NCBI GenBank assembly: GCA_947498625.1
Contig: CANMKR010000001.1
Location: 364,090 to 428,089, forward strand
Source of the DNA: an uncultured Kangiella sp.
Lineage (GTDB): Bacteria > Pseudomonadota > Gammaproteobacteria > Enterobacterales > Kangiellaceae
Length of the DNA stretch: 64,000 bases
Reading direction: 5' to 3'
The translations under genes and the position numbers were made by a program. Of this stretch, positions 2-64,000 are shown piece after piece. The stretch's first letter is position 1, and each line of letters opens with the position of its first letter. The notes beneath the pieces were generated by a model. The model searched no databases, had not been told where the DNA came from, and worked only from the letters and a program-made list of their open reading frames with translations.

Positions 2-1039
2 CCTGATCGTAATCCTGATGACAAAGAGGCGGAGGCGCGTTTTAAAGAAGCGAAAGAAGCCTACGAAGTATTAAATGATCCGCAAAAGCGTCAAGCTTAT
101 GATCAGTTTGGTCATGCCGGTGTTGACCAAAGTGCTGGTGGTCAAGGTGGTTTCCATGGCGCTGATATGGGTGACATTTTTGGCGATATGTTTGGCGATA
201 TCTTTGGTGGTGGCGGTCGTCGCGGCGGCGGTCGAGCAGGACCACAACGTGGTTCTGACTTGCAATACAATATGCAGGTGACACTAGAAGAAGCGGTTAA
301 CGGCGTGTCGAAAACCATTAAGGTTCCAACTTACGTTGATTGTGAGCCATGTGATGGTTCTGGTGCTAAGAAAGGTTCCGAGAAAGTCACTTGTGGAACT
401 TGTAATGGCCAAGGCCAAGTGCGTATGACCCAAGGTTTTTTCTCAGTTCAACAAACGTGTCCGGATTGTCAGGGACAGGGACAAACTATTAAAGATCCTT
501 GTAACTCTTGTTCTGGTCAAGGCCGTGTGCATAAAACCAAAACCTTGTCTGTAAAAATTCCTGCAGGTGTTGATACTGGCGATCGTATTCGCTTATCGGG
601 CGAAGGCGAAGCGGGTGGCCCCGGTGCTCCATCGGGCGATTTGTATGTTCAAATCAATGTTAAAGAGCATGAGATTTTTGTCCGAGATGGCGCCAACCTT
701 TACGCCGAAGTTCCTGTCAGTTTTGTCACTGCAGCATTAGGCGGAACCTTACAAGTGCCAACACTAGATGGCAAAGTAAGTTTGAAAATTCCTGCGGAAA
801 CGCAAACCGGTAAAATGTTCCGGTTAAAAGGCAAAGGCATAAAAGCCTTACGTCAAAATTATACTGGCGACCTGATGTGTCGTGTAATTTTGGAAACTCC
901 AGTTAAACTAAGCAAAGAGCAAAAAGAATTGCTAGAACAGTTCCAGCAGAGCGTTGCAGAGTCGGGCGGTAAGAATAGCCCCAAAGAAACCGGTTGGTTC
1001 GATGGTGTTAAAAAATTCTGGGATAATATGACCAGTTAA
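2..1039 (+). CDS. dnaJ: Chaperone protein DnaJ (5' truncated by window)
   Basis: DnaJ is the Hsp40 co-chaperone that delivers unfolded proteins to DnaK and stimulates its ATPase in the cytoplasm. The reading frame is open from base 2, so the first part of the J domain, including the HPD motif, lies outside the window and 345 residues are visible. The end of the J domain ([20 protein letters not shown]) is followed by a Gly/Phe-rich linker, then four CxxCxGxG zinc-binding repeats ([32 protein letters not shown]), then the C-terminal substrate-binding domain. A terminator follows directly. The gene probably belongs to a dnaK-dnaJ unit that starts upstream. The identity is secure. Confidence 0.98.
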
Positions 1040-1050
1040 TGATAGATTTA

Positions 1051-1075
1051 AAGCCCGCAAACAGCGGGCTTTTTT
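1051..1075 (+). terminator. Rho-independent terminator of dnaJ
   Basis: An 8-bp GC-rich stem (AAGCCCGC / GCGGGCTT) with a 5-base loop is followed by a run of T. It lies 11 bases after the dnaJ stop. Its T-run directly abuts the ribosome binding site of the next gene, so that gene has no room for its own promoter after the terminator. Confidence 0.9.
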
Positions 1076-1077
1076 AT

Positions 1078-1082
1078 GGAGG
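1078..1082 (+). promoter_or_regulatory. Ribosome binding site fixing the FRG gene start
   Basis: GGAGG lies 5 bases before the ATG at 1088. An upstream in-frame ATG at 1076 overlaps this site and has no Shine-Dalgarno of its own, so 1088 is the better start. Confidence 0.7.
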
Positions 1083-1087
1083 AAATA

Positions 1088-1912
1088 ATGCCTAATGAAA
1101 TTCAAAGCAGAGTTTTACGAAGGAGTTCGGACTTTTTAAGAAAGTTTGATTTTGATGATAACAAAGTATCATCTGTTTCAGAATATGCAAAAGTTATTCA
1201 AAGCTTCTGTTGTGGAGGTTCTTCTTTGTTTCGAGGAGAGCCACACCTTTATGATGTTCCTTTAATGCCATCAATTTTAAGGGATGATGCAAATCTAACA
1301 TATGAGAACGATAGGCATATTTCTGAGGAAGAGCTATTAGCCATTGAACAATGTAAGCAACAAGCTTTGCAAGGTAATATTAAGGATAAATATTTAAGAG
1401 CATTTATTCCAAATATGCATTTAGAAGATGTCAATTGGTTACCGTTGGCAAGGCATTTTGGATTCAATACTAGACTTTTAGATGTTACTTCTAACCCGTT
1501 AGTAGCCCTCTATTTTGCTGTATCTGAAGACTATAGAGGAGCTATACCTGAAGAGGACGATGCATTTGTATATATAATGAGAAAGAATAATTTCAGACCA
1601 GTAAACGATAGAAATATTATGCAAAATAGTAGTAATGATTATCCCCCAATTCCGATAAGCTATTTGGAATTATATGGTGTAGATACAGAGTTTGATGCAG
1701 ATTTAGATGAAATCCCCTATCTTTATGAGCCACATATTCCTCAGGAAAGATTAATAGCACAAGGTGGAAGTTTTGTATTTTGGAGAAGTCCAACTCCTGT
1801 ATTACATGCCGATTCGATGATTCCTATTAGGATTAATGCTGCGGAGACAATGCACATAAGAAATGAGCTTACAGCTTTTGGGATATGGGAAGAGCTTTTA
1901 TTTCCATGCTAG
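1088..1912 (+). CDS. FRG domain-containing protein
   Basis: This is a 274-residue soluble protein with the FRG domain, named for its N-terminal Phe-Arg-Gly motif. Here the motif is LFRGE near residue 48, and the second conserved block reads ARHFGFNTRLLDVTSNPL followed by ALYFAV. The biochemical role of FRG proteins is not established; in other bacteria they often sit in accessory or defence-type regions. There is no signal peptide or membrane segment. The gene is squeezed between the dnaJ terminator and the next gene, whose start overlaps its end, which suggests translational coupling. Its AT-rich codons (many AGA, ATA, TTA) differ from the flanking housekeeping genes and hint at acquisition. 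The family call is good and the function is unknown. Confidence 0.85.
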   Translation: MPNEIQSRVLRRSSDFLRKFDFDDNKVSSVSEYAKVIQSFCCGGSSLFRGEPHLYDVPLMPSILRDDANLTYENDRHISEEELLAIEQCKQQALQGNIKDKYLRAFIPNMHLEDVNWLPLARHFGFNTRLLDVTSNPLVALYFAVSEDYRGAIPEEDDAFVYIMRKNNFRPVNDRNIMQNSSNDYPPIPISYLELYGVDTEFDADLDEIPYLYEPHIPQERLIAQGGSFVFWRSPTPVLHADSMIPIRINAAETMHIRNELTAFGIWEELLFPC

Positions 1913-3669
1913 TTATGAAAAAGAACTCTGTTCAAACTCTATTACCAATAGTATTTTTTTTAAAGCCGTATAAAAAAATGGTGTTCTTTGCACTATTGGC
2001 TTTATTGCTTACAGCAGCGGTGAGTTTGTCTTTAGGGCATGGCTTAAAGTTAGTCATTGATAATGGTTTTGCTGCGGGTTCAGTTGAAAATCTTCGCTCG
2101 GCGATATTTGTGATGATTGCTTTGGTAAGCCTATTAGCCATTGGCACCTTTTGTCGTTTTTATTTAATGTCATGGCTTGGCGAGCGAGTCAGTGCTGATA
2201 TTCGCAAAGCGGTATTTGATCGTTTGGTGGTTTTACATCCCGCCTATTTTGAAGAAAATCGTAGTGGCGAAATCATGTCGCGTTTAACTACTGATACGAC
2301 TTTGTTGCAGTCAATAGTGGGCTCGTCTTTTTCCATGGCACTTCGCAGTAGCTTAACTTTTATAGGTGGCATTGCGATGTTGTTTTTTACCAATGTGCAA
2401 TTAACCCTTTATATACTGATTGGCGTGCCCATGGCGATTTTGCCGATGATTTTTTTTGGTAAAAAAGTCAGGAAGTTTTCTAAAGATAGCCAAGATACTA
2501 TTGCTGATGTTGGTACCTATGCGGGTGAAATAATCCAGAATATTAAGGTAGTGCAAAGTTACAGTCGTGAAGAGCAAGAAAAAGCAGCTTTTAGTGATGA
2601 AGTAGAAAAAGCTTTTGAGACTGCTAAGAAGCGAGTGCGCCAAAGATCAATTCTTATAGCTTCTGTGATCTTGATGGTGTTTGGTGGCTTAAGCGCGATG
2701 ATGTGGGTTGGCGGTAATGGGGTGATTTCGGGTGCTATCACCGGCGGTGAGTTAGCGGCCTTTGTGTTTTACGCCATGATGGTTGGAATGTCTGCTGCGA
2801 CTATTGCGGAAGTTTATGGCGAATTGCAAAGAGCTGCCGGTGCAGCCGAGCGAGTTGTGGATTTAATGGCGGTTCAAAGCAATATTTTACCGCCAGATAA
2901 TTTAGAGGCATTAAATGATAATGCTCTTAAGATGATAGCTTTTAATGACGTTAGTTTCAGTTACCCTTCGCGCCCTGATGAATTTGCGCTGAAGGATATT
3001 AATCTGACCATTAATAAAGGCGAAGTAGTGGCTTTAGTTGGGCCATCAGGAGCAGGTAAGACTACGCTATTCGAATTGCTTGAGCGTTTTTATGATCCAC
3101 AACAAGGCAATATTCTTTTTAAAGACGTAAACTTAAAACAGTTGGCGCCGAATAAACTGCGCGATGAGATGGCATTAGTGCCGCAGAACCCAATATTGTT
3201 TAGTAATGATGTTTGGTACAACATTCGCTATGGTAAATCTGACGCTATCGATGATGAAGTTATCGAAGCCGCCAAAAAGGCGCATGCTCATGATTTTGTG
3301 AAGACTTTGCCAAAGGGCTATGAAAGTTACTTAGGTGAGCAAGGTGTACGCTTATCGGGTGGACAAAAACAACGGGTGGCCTTAGCGAGAGCTATTTTAA
3401 AAGATCCAGAAGTTTTGCTGTTGGATGAAGCGACCAGTGCATTGGATGCCGAAAGTGAGCATCATGTACAAGCCGCTTTAGAAGAATTAATGAAAGATCG
3501 CACCACTTTGATCATAGCGCATAGACTTTCGACGGTGATCCATGCGGACAAAATTGTTTTGTTGGATAAAGGTGAAATAATCGCAATGGGTACTCATCAA
3601 GAATTATTGGCTTCTTCAAAACTCTATCAACGCTTGTGTGAGTTACAGTTTGATTTAACCGGGGATTAG
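1906..3669 (+). CDS. ABC exporter, fused membrane and ATPase domains (MsbA/BmrA-like)
   Basis: This is a half-transporter that works as a homodimer and exports lipids or hydrophobic drugs across the inner membrane. It has about six membrane segments in the first 310 residues, then an ATPase domain with Walker A GPSGAGKTT (about residues 379-387), signature LSGGQ and Walker B VLLLDEATSALD. In-frame starts exist at 1885, 1906 and 1915. I chose 1906, which overlaps the end of the FRG gene; 1915 is equally possible. The length of about 587 residues is normal for the family. The substrate cannot be read from the sequence. It could be a second MsbA-type lipid flippase, but no lpxK neighbour supports that. 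Confidence 0.88.
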   Translation: MLVMKKNSVQTLLPIVFFLKPYKKMVFFALLALLLTAAVSLSLGHGLKLVIDNGFAAGSVENLRSAIFVMIALVSLLAIGTFCRFYLMSWLGERVSADIRKAVFDRLVVLHPAYFEENRSGEIMSRLTTDTTLLQSIVGSSFSMALRSSLTFIGGIAMLFFTNVQLTLYILIGVPMAILPMIFFGKKVRKFSKDSQDTIADVGTYAGEIIQNIKVVQSYSREEQEKAAFSDEVEKAFETAKKRVRQRSILIASVILMVFGGLSAMMWVGGNGVISGAITGGELAAFVFYAMMVGMSAATIAEVYGELQRAAGAAERVVDLMAVQSNILPPDNLEALNDNALKMIAFNDVSFSYPSRPDEFALKDINLTINKGEVVALVGPSGAGKTTLFELLERFYDPQQGNILFKDVNLKQLAPNKLRDEMALVPQNPILFSNDVWYNIRYGKSDAIDDEVIEAAKKAHAHDFVKTLPKGYESYLGEQGVRLSGGQKQRVALARAILKDPEVLLLDEATSALDAESEHHVQAALEELMKDRTTLIIAHRLSTVIHADKIVLLDKGEIIAMGTHQELLASSKLYQRLCELQFDLTGD

Positions 3670-5325: not shown

Positions 5326-6129
5326 TTGATTCATTCTATTATCATTAATGCAGCCACTGGTCGTATGGGCAAAGAGCTGATTCAAGCCGTGGTATCTGAT
5401 ACCGATTCGGTTGTCGCCGCAGCGCTTGCAAGAGAAGGTCATCCTTTGATTGGCAGCGATATCGGTTATATGGTTGGCGCTAATCCGCAAAATAAATTGT
5501 TATCGTCGGATTTAGAGTCGGCCCTTTTATCGGCCAATGTGTTAATTGATTTTAGTTTGCCAGATCATTCGATCAGTACACTATTGCAAGCGGAAAAAAA
5601 CAATACTCCAGTATTGATTGGAACAACCGGCTTTGATGCGGAGCAATTAGCAATAATCGAGAAAACGGCAACTTCTATTCCTGTTATGCTGGCTTCTAAT
5701 TATAGTCTGGGCGTTAACAGTCTGATTCATTTAGTCACGCAAGCGACAAAGTTGTTATCGGATAAAGCTGATATAGAGATTTTTGAAGCTCACCACAAAC
5801 ATAAGATTGATTCGCCGTCAGGCACTGCGATCTCCATTGGCCAAGCGATTGCCGAAACCCAAGGGAAAAACTTGGATGAGATTGCTGCTTATGAGCGTTC
5901 TGGCGAGCGTAAAACTGGTGATATTGGCTTTGCAGTGATGCGTGGCGGAGAGATTATCGGGACGCATGAAGTGACTTTTGCCCTTAATGGTGAGCTAGTG
6001 AGTTTGAGGCATGAAGCCCAAACTAGACAGTGCTTTGCGCAAGGTGCTTTGACCGCTGCTAAATGGTTAGTGCAGCAGCCAGCGGGGTTATATAACATGC
6101 AAAATATGTTAAGTGGCTCACGTTTTTAG
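5326..6129 (+). CDS. dapB: 4-hydroxy-tetrahydrodipicolinate reductase
   Basis: DapB reduces 4-hydroxy-tetrahydrodipicolinate with NAD(P)H in the diaminopimelate/lysine pathway, which feeds peptidoglycan synthesis. The 267-residue product has the nucleotide-binding motif NAATGRMGKEL at residues 8-18, the conserved TTGF segment, and the signature EAHHKHKIDSPSGTA with the catalytic His/Lys region. Translation starts at TTG with AAGGTG about 8 bases upstream. A dnaJ-dapB-carAB order is also familiar from Pseudomonas-type genomes, although here an accessory block separates dnaJ from dapB. Confidence 0.97.
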   Translation: MIHSIIINAATGRMGKELIQAVVSDTDSVVAAALAREGHPLIGSDIGYMVGANPQNKLLSSDLESALLSANVLIDFSLPDHSISTLLQAEKNNTPVLIGTTGFDAEQLAIIEKTATSIPVMLASNYSLGVNSLIHLVTQATKLLSDKADIEIFEAHHKHKIDSPSGTAISIGQAIAETQGKNLDEIAAYERSGERKTGDIGFAVMRGGEIIGTHEVTFALNGELVSLRHEAQTRQCFAQGALTAAKWLVQQPAGLYNMQNMLSGSRF

Positions 6130-58846: not shown

Positions 58847-58869
58847 GGGTAATTTTATTTTTACCCTTT
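58847..58869 (+). terminator. Weak terminator-like hairpin after nuoN
   Basis: GGGTAA and TTACCC pair around an 8-base T-rich loop, followed by TTT only. It may end the nuo transcript, but the stem is short and AT-containing. Confidence 0.45.
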
Positions 58870-58938
58870 AAAATCAGATAATTAGTTGATAATTACAAAA
58901 TATCCTGTCAGTCTTTCAAAAAATATCCTTTAGTGAGA

Positions 58939-59550
58939 ATGAAAATGTCAAAAAAATTAATTTTCTTAGCAAGTATCTTTTTATTGGTGAACAAACCGGT
59001 TTACGCGCACAAACTACCTCAAGAATTGAATTCCCAGCTAGTTAATCACCATATTTTGAGCGATCAGATGCAATTTTCAGAATATGAGATTAACCAGTGG
59101 AGTAACTACGCAAAAACCATAGACATCGAAGCAATATCAGAACAGGTGAAGGTACCTGGTTTGATTTCATATGTAGCTGCGACTTCTAATAAATCCAATG
59201 CCGAAGTGGAGTGTAGTATTTATGCAGATGTTGAATCTGACAAAATATCGTCACTTTGTGGAGATCTTGACGATCACAGTCGTTTATTTATGACAGCGGG
59301 TTTAGCGGCGATTGGTTATTGCCACTTTAAACAAACAGAACTCTGGTCTTCATCTGGGGCGCAAAGCGAACCGGTGATATTAGTTCCTTACTTTAAAGGC
59401 CCTAATTCATTTGTGTCTAGTATTGGAGAGGCGACGAATGGCAACCATCATGCTGAATACCAAACTAGTCACGGATTACAATTTCATTGTGTAGATGCTA
59501 GTAGCCTATCTGACACAGCTCAAGAAATTACAGAAGAAGAAAACTCTTAG
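58939..59550 (+). CDS. Hypothetical secreted protein
   Basis: I do not recognise this 203-residue protein. It has a signal peptide (KKLIFLASIFLLVNKPVYA, cleavage probably after VYA) and a mature part with four cysteines (ECSIYA, SLCGD, GYCHFK, FHCVD), suggesting two disulfides and a periplasmic or secreted location. The C-terminus is acidic (EITEEENS). Starts at 58933 (GTG), 58939 and 58945 are close together. The stop lies 1 base from the stop of the convergent TPR gene. Confidence 0.6.
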   Translation: MKMSKKLIFLASIFLLVNKPVYAHKLPQELNSQLVNHHILSDQMQFSEYEINQWSNYAKTIDIEAISEQVKVPGLISYVAATSNKSNAEVECSIYADVESDKISSLCGDLDDHSRLFMTAGLAAIGYCHFKQTELWSSSGAQSEPVILVPYFKGPNSFVSSIGEATNGNHHAEYQTSHGLQFHCVDASSLSDTAQEITEEENS

Positions 59551-59551
59551 T

Positions 59552-61684
59552 TTAACTTTTATCAAAAGCTAGGATTTTATTGAGATAGAGTTCGATTGAC
59601 TCTCTTTCAAAGCTGGTTAATTCCTTATTTGATAATAAGAAGTAGCAAGTTTTAATCACATTCTTTAATCTTGGTTGCTTAGGTAATGCTTTCATTGATA
59701 AGTATTTGTCCAATGAACGTGTTCTTAAGCGACCTTCATCGATGTTAACTTTCCATATTTTACTTTTCTCTGCGAACTCCACTTTATTGGTATTGGTAGC
59801 TCTTATCCATGAATCTACACATAGCTTCATAGCATCAACAATTAATGGCCGAAGTAAGCCGATATCGTTGATATCAATACTTAGAGAATTAATAGATTGT
59901 GCAAAACGATTAGCATTTGCAATTTTCCTGGAAGAATCAAATGGTCTTGTGTCGTCTGAAAGAAACTCGAAGGCATAATACTCAGAGTTAATTAGTGGAG
60001 TTATTTTAATAAACTCAAGAGAGTCGATATTAGTATCTTGAGCTACCTTCGAGGTTAGGCTTTCTCCGGATTCAATACACTTTTCAAATTGATTATTTAG
60101 ATCATTGGAAAATTGACTTAAATTAAGATCAATTATTGAATCTGGCTTGGAAAAATAAGGCAAATTACTATAAACAATAAAGCCGGCTTCATTACAAATG
60201 AGTATCTTTTCATCGCTATCTTTAAATAAATGTTTGAAATTTAAAAGAGGCTTCTCTAACTCGATTAACTTTGCTTTGTGAGATTGAAGTTCAGCTTTTA
60301 ACTGTAACCTTTTTTGCCGATTCAGTTTAAATCGATGATAAAAAAGTAGTAATGAAAATAGAAAAATACCTAAAATGGAATATAAGGTTAAAGTAAGTCT
60401 TTGGTTATTCGTAGTGCTTAGCAACAATGCATTATCGCGTTCTAAAATTCGTTTTTCATTGAGCTGAGTTTCTAGTTTAAACTTTATTTGCCTGAGATCA
60501 TTATTATATTTCTCTTCATTACTGGCTTGCTGAATATGAAAGTGTTTCTTAAAATTTATTAATGCTTTGTTACTGTCCCCAATTTTTTCTTCGATATCAG
60601 AGTAGAGTTTATATACTTTCAAAAGGATTAAGTTGTCAGTATATTCCTCGGCCATTTGGGCAGAAAGGTTTGTGAAATTTAGAGCGGCTTCTAAGTTATC
60701 CAATTCGAATTCAGCTTTTCCTAATAGATAGTAAAGACGGCTATGATTATTATCATCATCACTGTTACCTAATAACTCTGTGGCTTTATCAAGGAATTGT
60801 TTAGCAAGGGAGTAGTCAGCGGCCTCAATTAGACCTTCAGCCAAATCAATGTACCTAGATCGTTTTGTATTATCATCATCAAGTGCTTGTATAGAGGAAT
60901 AGACTCGATTTAATGTTATTCGACTATTTGTGGTATCACCCAAACGAGCATACAGTGCTGCCAAATCAGTATTAATATGGATAATGCGTTCAGGCAAGGC
61001 TTTGTTTGATGGGTCTTCAGCTAAAGCCTTTTGGTACCTTTGTAGTGCGTCCAAATAAAATTTGAGCGCAGCTTCGTTATCTTTTAATCGATAATAGACT
61101 AAAGCTATATTTCGAACAGTTACAGCTGATGAATGCTCCAATTGTAAAGACTCTTTTATGTCTAAGCTTTGCTTCAAGTAAGTGAGGGCTTCTTTATACT
61201 CTAACTTCCTTAGTCTGATTAAACCTAAATCATTAAGTGATTTAGCAATGCGTTTGAGGTCATTTAATTCTTGAGCTTTTTCAAGGCCTAGCTGGAAGTG
61301 GGGTTCCGCTTGATTGTAATCGCCTTGATGATAGTAATATGCACCGTGATCTCTTAGTATTTCATGATGTTCAATTCCTGAAGTGACCAAAGATTTTGCA
61401 TCACTAAATAGTGTTTCTATTGGATCATCATTGCCTAGTTTTGTATTTATTTTAATTAAAAGCCTGGTTATCGCTAAATTTTGCTCTAATTCATTTGATG
61501 CAATAGCTTTTTGTTTCGCATTTTGGCAAGCTTCTTGAGCTGCTTGGATAGACTGTTGATCATATATCAACTTACAGTGTGCAAAAAAAGCCCCATCTGT
61601 TTGATTCTGCGCATTTACCTGCATAGCTAGTGCTGAAAGTATTAAAAGTATCACTAGAGAATTTAAATTTTTATTTTCGTACAT
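59552..61684 (-). CDS. TPR-repeat membrane protein with PAS-like and C-terminal regulatory domain
   Basis: This 710-residue protein has a signal peptide (SLVILLILSALAMQVNA), a long TPR region outside the cytoplasm (for example RIAKSLNDLGLIRLRKLEYK and EAALKFYLDALQRYQKAL), a membrane segment at about 430-450 (LTLYSILGIFLFSLLLFY), a coiled coil and a PAS-like cytoplasmic segment near 485-575 (ILICNEAGFIVYSNLPYF). The last 120 residues contain KIWKVNIDEGRLRTRSLDKY and LPKQPRLKNVIKT, a block I have seen, as far as I recall, in other uncharacterised marine gammaproteobacterial regulators. No histidine-kinase or GGDEF motif is seen. It looks like a sensor of unknown output. Confidence 0.7.
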   Translation of the reverse strand: MYENKNLNSLVILLILSALAMQVNAQNQTDGAFFAHCKLIYDQQSIQAAQEACQNAKQKAIASNELEQNLAITRLLIKINTKLGNDDPIETLFSDAKSLVTSGIEHHEILRDHGAYYYHQGDYNQAEPHFQLGLEKAQELNDLKRIAKSLNDLGLIRLRKLEYKEALTYLKQSLDIKESLQLEHSSAVTVRNIALVYYRLKDNEAALKFYLDALQRYQKALAEDPSNKALPERIIHINTDLAALYARLGDTTNSRITLNRVYSSIQALDDDNTKRSRYIDLAEGLIEAADYSLAKQFLDKATELLGNSDDDNNHSRLYYLLGKAEFELDNLEAALNFTNLSAQMAEEYTDNLILLKVYKLYSDIEEKIGDSNKALINFKKHFHIQQASNEEKYNNDLRQIKFKLETQLNEKRILERDNALLLSTTNNQRLTLTLYSILGIFLFSLLLFYHRFKLNRQKRLQLKAELQSHKAKLIELEKPLLNFKHLFKDSDEKILICNEAGFIVYSNLPYFSKPDSIIDLNLSQFSNDLNNQFEKCIESGESLTSKVAQDTNIDSLEFIKITPLINSEYYAFEFLSDDTRPFDSSRKIANANRFAQSINSLSIDINDIGLLRPLIVDAMKLCVDSWIRATNTNKVEFAEKSKIWKVNIDEGRLRTRSLDKYLSMKALPKQPRLKNVIKTCYFLLSNKELTSFERESIELYLNKILAFDKS

Positions 61685-61815: not shown

Positions 61816-62286
61816 TCAATCATCCATTTCAGGATCAGTAATCATAGCTTCCAGTTTGTGGTTATAGGACCTGATACTATAATCTTGGCGAAGAATTTTA
61901 ATTTTCTTAATTAACTCTTCATTATTCATAGAGCCAGCGCCCGAACCTGAGGGTGGTGCTGTAGTATTCCAAAAGTCTAATATTTCTTCATAGGCTTCAT
62001 AATCAGTTTCAAAGCGGTAAACACATTTTGGACTGCCTTCGAATGGTAGCCAAGAGTCATTGTTTGCATAATCTTCATATGTCGCCTGTAGACACTCCTC
62101 CTCAGTAGTATAAGGTCCGCGACTAGCGTACTGATAACTGATGATTCCGTTATTATTCATTTGTGCTACTGCAGTATAAAAATATCCGCCACAGGTTGGA
62201 CAGTTTTGTGCAGCCTTTGATATTGCGGGTAATGTTATGGATATTCCCACTACTAGTGTTAATAGACTTTTTTTAATTAATTTCAT
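61816..62286 (-). CDS. Hypothetical secreted protein with N-terminal CPTC motif
   Basis: This 156-residue protein is not recognised. It has a signal peptide (KSLLTLVVGISITLPAISKA) and begins its mature part with QNCPTCGGYFYTAVA, a CxxC that could bind metal or act in redox. Further features are two cysteines (EECLQA, KCVYRF), a Pro/Gly/Ser linker (TAPPSGSGAGS) and an acidic C-terminus. AAGGAAA precedes the start. It is divergent from the Pmp-repeat gene and shares its promoter region. Confidence 0.6.
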   Translation of the reverse strand: MKLIKKSLLTLVVGISITLPAISKAAQNCPTCGGYFYTAVAQMNNNGIISYQYASRGPYTTEEECLQATYEDYANNDSWLPFEGSPKCVYRFETDYEAYEEILDFWNTTAPPSGSGAGSMNNEELIKKIKILRQDYSIRSYNHKLEAMITDPEMDD

Positions 62287-62391
62287 CTCGTTTTCCTTAA
62301 GTTAAAAATTGATGGTTTGTTCTTTGTTAAGAACTAAAAAAAGCCTAGCCCTAATAATTATAAGTAACAATTAAATAGCAGGGTAGAAATA

Positions 62392-62451
62392 GGGTAAAAC
62401 CGGACTTAGTAGTTTTCTTCTATATTTTACCCGGGTTTTACCCGGTAAAAT
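62392..62451. repeat. Iterated TTTTACCC motif with dyad symmetry
   Basis: TTTTACCCGGG (62425-62435) and TTTTACCCGGT (62436-62446) are tandem 11-bp repeats. An inverted copy, GGGTAAAACCGG, lies at 62392-62403. ATTTTACC (62424-62431) and GGTAAAAT (62444-62451) form an exact dyad. The set lies in the 228-base divergent region and is about one helical turn in period, as for cooperative regulator binding. Confidence 0.6.
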
Positions 62452-62514
62452 TCTATACAGAGTTAATCGCAATAACTACTGTTAGCTTTTTTAAGTAATA
62501 AGAGAGTTTACGAT

Positions 62515-64000
62515 ATGAGTCTATTTAAGAAAGTTGCTTTATGGTTTGTTTTAACGTTTTCAATAAGTACTCAGGCTGCCACCATTGTTGTCAATAGTAC
62601 CAATGGAGGTACTGGCGGCCCGGATTGCAGTTTAGCGGATGCGATTATAGCGGCGAATACAGGGACTACTTCTGCGGGTTGTACCGCAGGAAGTAACGGT
62701 GGCGATGAAATTATTTTTGATAATAACCTAATTAATAGCGCAATTGTTTTGACAGCGGATTTGCCAGCGGTAACAGATGACCTTGATATTATAGGAACAG
62801 CGGGTCAGATAAGCATAAGTGGTGATAATTTATATTCAATATTTATTGCAGAAGGAATAAGACTTAATTTATTTAACCTTAGATTGTTAGGCGGTAGTGG
62901 TAAGACGGATTCAATCTTTATTGGAGGTTTTGTTAATAATGGCGGGGCTTTAGCTGCAATATCCGGAGCACTGGTCACGATTAACGAATCTACATTATCA
63001 AACAATACAGCATTTTGGGGAGGCGGTGCAATTTTTGCAGAAGATGATTCGTTTGTGGAGTTGAATAATAGCACTTTAGCAAATAATACTACTAGCCAAC
63101 GTGGAGGAGCACTGGCAGCGATTAATGCTCAGATAAGCGTCCAAAACAGTGTGTTGTTAAACAATACTGCTTCTCGGGGAGGAGCTGTATGGTTAACGAT
63201 GAACTCTACTGCCAACATAAATAATAGTCAAATCTCTAATAACGTAGGAACTTTAAAGGCTGGAGCAATCTTTAGTGAGGCAGGAGGTACTGTAGAAATC
63301 ATAGAAAGTGAACTATTAAACAATAGTTCGGGCTCACCTTATATACCTTATCAGAGCTTTCTTGGCGGAGGTGCTATTGCCGTTAGTGGTGCTGAATTGA
63401 ATGTCATAAATAGTACGATCGCTGGTAATAATAGCTTCCATTCTGGGGGAGCTATTCATGCTCATTCAGGAGCTCAGATTGATTTAAACAGTGTATTTCT
63501 TTTAGATAATAACTCAACATATGCGGGTGGAGCTATATATACTGAGTCTAACGTAGAGACGAATATCACTAGAAGTTTTGTCGCAAACAATGCTACCAAT
63601 AACAGTGGTGGAGCTATTCATGCTGTTAATAATGCCGTTGTTAGCCTTAATAGTAGTACATTATCTAATAATATCGCGGATATTAAAGGTGGGGCTATTT
63701 TTGCTGATGATAGTAATGTTGAGCTTATTAATAGCACTGTATCTGGTAACAACTCTGGCGACGGAGGTGGTGCTGCTTTTATGAATAATGGGACTTCTTT
63801 AAATTTACAGAGTAGTACTTTTGCTGAGAATATCGGTGGTTCGGTCTTTGCATTTAACTCTTCCAATGCAACATTAAGAAATACAGTATTAGCCGATGGA
63901 CATTGTGATTTAGATTCAAGTAGTACTGTTACTTTAAATGGAGGTGTGCATATTGATGACGGTACCTGTGGCGCTACTTCATTCGGCCCATCGCAGTTAG
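62515..64000 (+). CDS. Pmp-repeat surface protein with CSLREA-like N-terminus (3' truncated)
   Basis: The frame is open from ATG 62515 to the end of the window (495 codons). A signal peptide (KKVALWFVLTFSISTQAA) is followed by DCSLADAIIAANTG, the CSLREA-type motif of large surface proteins. Then come about eleven polymorphic-outer-membrane-protein repeats built around GGA-I/L/V (GGALAAIS, GGAIFAEDD, GGALAAINA, GGAVWLTMN, GGAIAVSG, GGAIHAHSG, GGAIYTESN, GGAIHAVNN, GGAIFADDS) with NNT/NN turns, predicting a right-handed beta-helix. Such proteins are secreted or surface-attached adhesins. The C-terminal anchor is beyond the window. Confidence 0.88.
   Translation, partial: MSLFKKVALWFVLTFSISTQAATIVVNSTNGGTGGPDCSLADAIIAANTGTTSAGCTAGSNGGDEIIFDNNLINSAIVLTADLPAVTDDLDIIGTAGQISISGDNLYSIFIAEGIRLNLFNLRLLGGSGKTDSIFIGGFVNNGGALAAISGALVTINESTLSNNTAFWGGGAIFAEDDSFVELNNSTLANNTTSQRGGALAAINAQISVQNSVLLNNTASRGGAVWLTMNSTANINNSQISNNVGTLKAGAIFSEAGGTVEIIESELLNNSSGSPYIPYQSFLGGGAIAVSGAELNVINSTIAGNNSFHSGGAIHAHSGAQIDLNSVFLLDNNSTYAGGAIYTESNVETNITRSFVANNATNNSGGAIHAVNNAVVSLNSSTLSNNIADIKGGAIFADDSNVELINSTVSGNNSGDGGGAAFMNNGTSLNLQSSTFAENIGGSVFAFNSSNATLRNTVLADGHCDLDSSSTVTLNGGVHIDDGTCGATSFGPSQL

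Follow-up and report, generated by a model that had tools for sequence, protein, structure and literature searches.

The window, meaning the whole 64,000-nt stretch of DNA analysed here, holds a repeat array at positions 62381-62443, in a divergent intergenic region. To the right of the array lies a Pmp-repeat/beta-helix gene (62515-63999, plus strand) that extends beyond the window end. Its full product, of 645 aa, contains a He_PIG domain as well as repeats of the Pmp/beta-helix type; the adhesin-like character given to it in the original prediction is putative. To its left lies CPTC (61816-62286, minus strand), a gene for a small secreted-type protein positioned upstream of REG and on the same strand. 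REG (59552-61684, minus strand) encodes a 710-aa TPR-transmembrane protein with a C-terminal ChiS-family DNA-binding domain, and is the candidate reader of the array. The convergent gene HELP (58933-59550, plus strand) encodes a small secreted Cys-containing protein.

The array consists of two 19-bp boxes, each a pair of TTTTACCC-like units with an 11-bp period, which point outward and are separated by 25 nt. Box A (62381-62399, minus strand) has the form TTTTACCC-TAT-TTCTACCC, reads GGGTAGAAATAGGGTAAAA on the plus strand, and faces the CPTC and REG genes. Box B (62425-62443, plus strand) has the form TTTTACCC-GGG-TTTTACCC and faces the Pmp-repeat gene. The original prediction described this region, as 62392-62451, in terms of two tandem copies, one inverted copy and an exact 8-bp dyad. 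The three TTTTACCC copies (62425-62432 and 62436-62443 on the plus strand with an 11-bp period, and 62392-62399 on the minus strand) and the dyad ACCCGGGT (62429-62436) are present as described. The copies fall inside that range, but its left element is clipped, since box A starts at 62381. Moreover, the inverted copy is itself one of a pair, and the picture of two copies plus one gives way to two outward-facing tandem-repeat boxes. A functional 8-bp dyad has to be abandoned: ACCCGGGT is a by-product of the repeat junction, and the relative G015 has ACCCAGGT in its place.

The second unit of box B, together with an inverted partial unit, forms another dyad, TTTTACC-C-GGTAAAA (62436-62450). Its core, TTTTAC-N3-GTAAAA, is retained in G012, G015 and the HELP promoter of G028 and is absent from most HELP promoters; it may represent a third, inverted half-site. 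At window positions 62436-62450 and near position 6043 of locus L160, the core coincides with the second box unit; it does so in G000, G012 and G015, and in G028 too. Ten nucleotides past the end of box B stands TATACA (62454-62459, plus strand), a candidate -10 element of the Pmp-repeat gene in which four of six positions are invariant across three species. If TATACA is the -10, as is plausible, box B would cover the -35 of the Pmp-repeat gene.

A search of 60 relatives with the array DNA found two, both congeners, that align over most or a large part of the region, G012 (E = 3.7e-51) and G015 (E = 6.3e-17), and the conservation figures compare these two species with the window. Sixteen of the 19 positions of box A are invariant in the three species, as are 23 of the 26 positions formed by box B and the next 7 nt (to 62450), while the spacer between the boxes retains 2 of 25. 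Overall, invariant positions make up 39/45 of the boxes vs 75/183 elsewhere (Fisher p = 2.9e-8). In G015, no ORF of at least 60 aa, hence no CPTC ORF, lies between box A and REG (L014 1660-2089 / L145). The conservation of box A despite the lost ORF suggests that box A serves REG.

Judged from the single sequence, the array is only moderately unusual. In dinucleotide shuffles of the 228-bp intergenic region, three copies of TTTTACCC on both strands never recur (0/5000, for a word chosen after looking), and the longest exact direct repeat at a spacing of 8-22, which is 10 nt, is attained in 28/2000. Two other features are not special: any non-palindromic 8-mer occurs at least three times in 749/5000 shuffles, and a perfect dyad with an arm of 7, the longest present, in 183/1000. 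In the window as a whole, TTTTACCC occurs 5 times against 2.95 expected, a count reached in 15/100 shuffles. The assertion that the array is beyond chance thus draws modest support from single-sequence shuffles; it is genome-wide uniqueness and conservation that settle the array as real. The pattern TTTACCC-N3-TTYTACCC has two perfect matches in the 2,320,288-bp genome, boxes A and B. The next-best sites comprise one with one mismatch and ten with two, and 9 of these 11 lie inside ORFs of at least 60 aa. Sites spaced by ten base pairs with one or two mismatches behave likewise, 13 of 16 being in ORFs, with box B among the three intergenic ones. Since imperfect sites lie mostly within ORFs, the regulon looks local, and a genome-wide regulon was rejected on these two counts. 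When up to three mismatches are allowed, the 11-bp pattern yields 62 and 54 sites by strand vs 62 and 50 for the reversed control, that is, no excess of weak 11-bp boxes in the genome.

The original prediction had also proposed scanning the genome for the decamer TTTTACCCGG. This word is found at nine sites vs two for its reversed control, making it a poor marker by itself; seven of the nine lie elsewhere, and the decamer was rejected as a regulon marker. The two-unit box, by comparison, is found nowhere else. The palindrome TTTTACCNGGTAAAA was likewise rejected as the unit, with 247 sites of up to three mismatches vs 219 for the control. Across 20 genomes of the genus, counts of the 11-bp pattern (up to two mismatches) did not separate REG-bearing from REG-less genomes. 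No DNA similar to the array region was found in plasmids.

The description of the region as a specific binding array in a divergent promoter is well supported by conservation, uniqueness and recurrence across genera; for the regulator, which had been left unnamed, the gene at 59552-61684 supplies a strong candidate. The ChiS-family domain of REG (59555-59854, minus strand; about residues 611-710) was delineated by phmmer and profile matches. The REG C-terminus matches PDB 7KPO (7kpo_A) with E = 1.7e-16 (phmmer), a profile of 23 REGs matches it with E = 1.6e-29, and within the 256-aa C-terminal portion of REG the match spans residues 156-250. 7KPO is the DNA-binding domain of ChiS; according to PMC8092284 this domain occurs only at C-termini, and TPR architectures are among those listed in the legend of its Fig. 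5A. Hand-mapping of the critical ChiS residues R1068, R1074, K1078, R1090 and R1092 gives E, R, K, R and K in REG; three of the five are identical, R1092 is replaced by K, and R1068, described as poorly conserved in the excerpted text of PMC8092284, by E. Within the last 120 residues of REG, no Pfam family passes the curated cut-off. A Pfam scan of REG at E up to 0.1 returned TPR-type and unrelated weak matches and no kinase, receiver, Response_reg or Trans_reg_C domain. In this, REG is unlike a ChiS orthologue, which would have histidine kinase and receiver domains, and unlike an OmpR/PhoB-family response regulator, which would combine a receiver with a Trans_reg_C winged helix. The AlphaFold model of REG (four sequences, mean pLDDT 69.9) shows a TPR superhelix, a long helix holding the membrane segment and a poorly modelled middle. 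Its C-terminus is of helix-strand-strand-helix layout at modest confidence, with helices at 612-630, 656-661 and 671-684 and strands at 634-639 and 642-647, and a pLDDT there of about 54-77.

Matches to the 121-aa REG C-terminus occur in 27 of 61 genomes, own genome included, and TPR-type REGs in 23. The four other matching genomes have ChiS-sized proteins of 1119-1163 aa (G045, G047, G056) or a 160-aa ORF only (G026). In all 23 TPR-type cases, HELP immediately follows REG in convergent orientation, at a distance of -3 to 181 nt; its start was shifted by hand to the signal-peptide region in L144, L147, L154 and L166. A profile from the 23 HELP proteins recovers the same 23/61 genomes and none besides, although it was built from those same 23 genes and unlike relatives could be missed. 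HELP is present in 25/394 genomes of the order and 2/369 of the class, own genome counted in both. The HELP protein has no PDB sequence match, its AlphaFold model (mean pLDDT 45) is unusable, and a Pfam scan gave one weak match, in one of the 23 members. That HELP acts as a partner of REG is a guess.

In genera g3 and g5, small secreted-type proteins encoded next to REG are homologues of CPTC, with 27-30% identity and, among the 14 proteins compared, E from 6e-20 to 8e-16. CPTC is accordingly a member of a small secreted-type family that accompanies REG in other genera too, secretion being read from the N-termini by eye. Other REG loci carry other small secreted-type genes. Two more such families beside REG, the VPWCH.G and PWKASAD types, were observed (L149 2179-2814, L152 7144-7734, L160 2180-2722; L161 5996-6415, L167 4017-4445), some with upstream boxes.

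The tandem repeat recurs upstream of HELP in other lineages. Upstream regions of 350 nt were scored out of 14 with the window-derived half-site TTTACCC at a spacing of 10 or 11 bp, for 20 HELP genes outside the window lineage; the three window-lineage promoters, which score 10-11 with the half-site TTTACCM, were omitted. A score of at least 12/14 is attained by 18/20 HELP regions vs 4/135 other genes and 1/2000 shuffled HELP regions. For HELP vs other genes in the same loci, this corresponds to a Fisher p of 8.8e-18, a value that overstates independence because the loci are related. At a score of at least 11/14, the counts are 19/20, 12/135 and 41/2000, and the two HELP promoters below 12/14 are those of G033 (10) and G024 (11). 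A scan of spacings from 7 to 23 finds the repeat in 17/20 regions at 10 bp, 5/20 at 11 bp and 0-4/20 at the rest; the 10-bp spacing, which most relatives use where the window uses 11, was admitted after inspection. Of the four non-HELP genes that have a box, two are REG itself, in G008 and G011. The third, also in G011, encodes a small secreted protein, and the fourth, in G030, has its upstream region in common with another gene for a small secreted protein.

In the window lineage itself (window, G012, G015), no direct repeat was found in the HELP promoters. The element GGGTAA...TTTTTACCC (58847-58866), one unit plus an inverted partial unit, replaces it upstream of HELP in the window; the same layout is present in G012 and G015 and scores 10-11/14 as a direct repeat. 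Five loci not used in deriving the motif, and those of G761, were scored with TTTACCM. Upstream of HELP, G331 scores 14/14 (75 nt away), G397-C25 13/14 and G085 12/14, the last being the sole such box in its 6.9 kb. In L143, a gammaproteobacterial MAG found through REG, a 13/14 box lies between HELP and the next gene, and the available 261 nt of sequence preceding HELP contain none. G397-C135 has no box of at least 12/14 near HELP, its two 12/14 sites being more than 1.8 kb off. In G761, which lies outside the order, the three HELP-like loci L201-L203 have no box of at least 12 in 3.2-3.5 kb each; a REG-type gene adjoins two of the three. Between HELP and REG, L143 carries a 712-aa ORF (1015-3153) with the 13/14 box upstream of it; besides the window lineage, this is a further case of a large gene with a box of this kind in front. 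In the REG tree, the window lineage stands apart from the other ten REGs of its genus and groups with L143 (100/100), a placement of L143 that is unsure because its branch is long.

Variation in the half-site runs parallel to variation in REG. Four REGs (L148, L154, L156, L166) carry G-S/T-LRTR and the other 19/23 GRLRTR. The four go with TTTACCAG-type (ACCA) boxes, the first unit in L156 being TTTACCG, and come from two genera, g3 and g5, in which ACCC-type loci occur as well. All four belong to one clade (100/100), so the link between S/T and ACCA amounts to one event and is only suggestive, co-inheritance being possible. A different word was noticed upstream of transporter genes adjoining ChiS-sized proteins (L164, L168, L169, L170), where TTWACG pairs with 9-12 nt spacing occur in three of four regions. 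Each is matched by 3-7/1000 shuffles, for a word picked after looking, and these four regions have no strong TTTACCM repeat. The TTWACG pairs are possible sites of ChiS-type proteins.

The motif looks like a docking site for REG because the same motif adjoins REG relatives in other genera, and we estimate at about 0.8 the probability, from sequence comparison, that REG and the boxes pair as regulator and operator. Points against the pairing are the half-site misses, the absence of a direct repeat from the window lineage's own HELP promoters, the late admission of the 10-bp spacing and the E that REG has where ChiS has R1068. If the pairing holds, REG would be a membrane-anchored one-component transcription regulator and the array its operator. 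Its N-terminal TPR sensor is predicted outside the cytoplasm and would be connected through one transmembrane helix to the cytoplasmic C-terminal DNA-binding domain. Two REG domains may occupy adjacent positions along the same face of the helix, on tandem TTTTACCC-type units one helical turn (10/11 bp) apart. The outward orientation of the boxes, and the position of box B over the predicted -35, make it most likely that REG activates the Pmp-repeat gene and, by way of box A, which faces CPTC and REG, its own operon, such autoregulation being putative. In relatives, the same kind of box lies upstream of convergent HELP. Among these, the ten other REG-bearing genomes of the genus place the HELP box some 60-160 nt ahead of the start codon, which fits activation. 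Provided that REG binds the boxes, activation is the somewhat better-favoured outcome.

Repression of the divergent promoters by bound REG would be a variant of this reading, and is unlikely though to be taken seriously. A protein on box B over the -35 could block polymerase, and sequence cannot discriminate between the two outcomes. The HELP boxes in the genus Kangiella, however, occupy the usual place of an activator, and ChiS, the characterised relative, is an activator of Pchb in the portions of PMC8092284 drawn on here. A further alternative has REG as a bystander and the boxes read by a cytoplasmic response regulator of the OmpR/PhoB family, CpxR- or PhoB-like. Members of this family typically bind direct repeats of about 11 bp that overlap the -35, and the minus strand of box B, GTAAA-N6-GTAAA, resembles a CpxR box. 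A general regulator would not predict that, in 61 genomes, boxed HELP genes occur only where there is a TPR-type REG, nor does it sit well with the missing genome excess of weaker 11-bp boxes (62, 54 vs 62, 50), and REG itself gives no Response_reg or Trans_reg_C match; this alternative is improbable.

Still less probable is a dimeric repressor that reads the palindrome TTTTACC-C-GGTAAAA, to which the direct repeats would be incidental. The dyad is perfect in the window and its core is kept in G012, G015 and the G028 HELP promoter, as noted above. Yet a perfect dyad with 7-nt arms arises in 183/1000 shuffles, and near-matches to the palindrome number 247 vs 219 for the control; no such dyad accompanies box A, and in most HELP promoters the direct repeat stands without it. 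That the repeats arose by chance in AT-rich intergenic DNA is hardly credible. The modest single-sequence tests (749/5000 and 28/2000 shuffles) would permit it, but it is already contradicted by the conservation of the boxes next to an unconserved spacer, by their recurrence in 18/20 REG-linked promoters and by the spacing preference.

The pairing of REG with its putative operator recalls several known systems. PhoB/OmpR-family regulators use tandem direct-repeat boxes about one helical turn apart that overlap the -35. Their DNA-binding fold is a different one, and REG, a predicted membrane protein, shows no match to a receiver. Membrane-bound one-component regulators of the ToxR/CadC type have the sensor outside, the DNA-binding domain inside and a local regulon; theirs is an N-terminal winged helix, in contrast to the C-terminal ChiS-type domain of REG. 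The likeness to ChiS of Vibrio cholerae is one of protein features, operator sequences aside. Both proteins are membrane-anchored (predicted for REG) with the same type of C-terminal domain, and ChiS, as presented in excerpts of PMC8092284 and PMC11856585, is an activator with two binding sites in its target promoter Pchb, comparable to the two boxes and proposed activation here. Unlike REG with its TPR sensor, ChiS responds to chitin and is built as a hybrid kinase, receiver and PAS domains included. Closest in design are the TPR-type ChiS-family proteins, which combine TPR and a C-terminal ChiS-family domain as REG does; the excerpted text of PMC8092284 gives their architectures only, and the operator, the HELP partner and the targets are proposed here. 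Earlier publications already cover the ChiS-type domain family, including its TPR architecture, and the binding of DNA from the membrane. Searches of open-access literature found no published operator for TPR-type ChiS-family proteins, nor the HELP partnership or the rewired divergent promoter.

These observations invite a tentative and rather speculative generalization. ChiS-family domains as a class may recognise T-tract-AC[C/G] half-sites spaced by roughly one helical turn, with one domain per half-site, and the residue at ChiS position 1070, in the sheet of the domain (R with ACCC, S/T with ACCA), might help to set the last base. The TPR branch could be a local switch that recurs between lineages, is tethered to the membrane and, through its sensor, may keep watch on the very Cys-containing secreted proteins under its control; here it would have been rewired onto a beta-helix surface-type protein. 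The locus offers a predicted operator for a TPR-type member of the ChiS family, a half-site with defined spacing whose natural ACCC and ACCA variants are tied to sister regulator clades. Its compact divergent promoter provides a testbed for DNA recognition and action from the membrane, and the locus illustrates how a surface-type protein can come under the control of a local switch tethered to the membrane.
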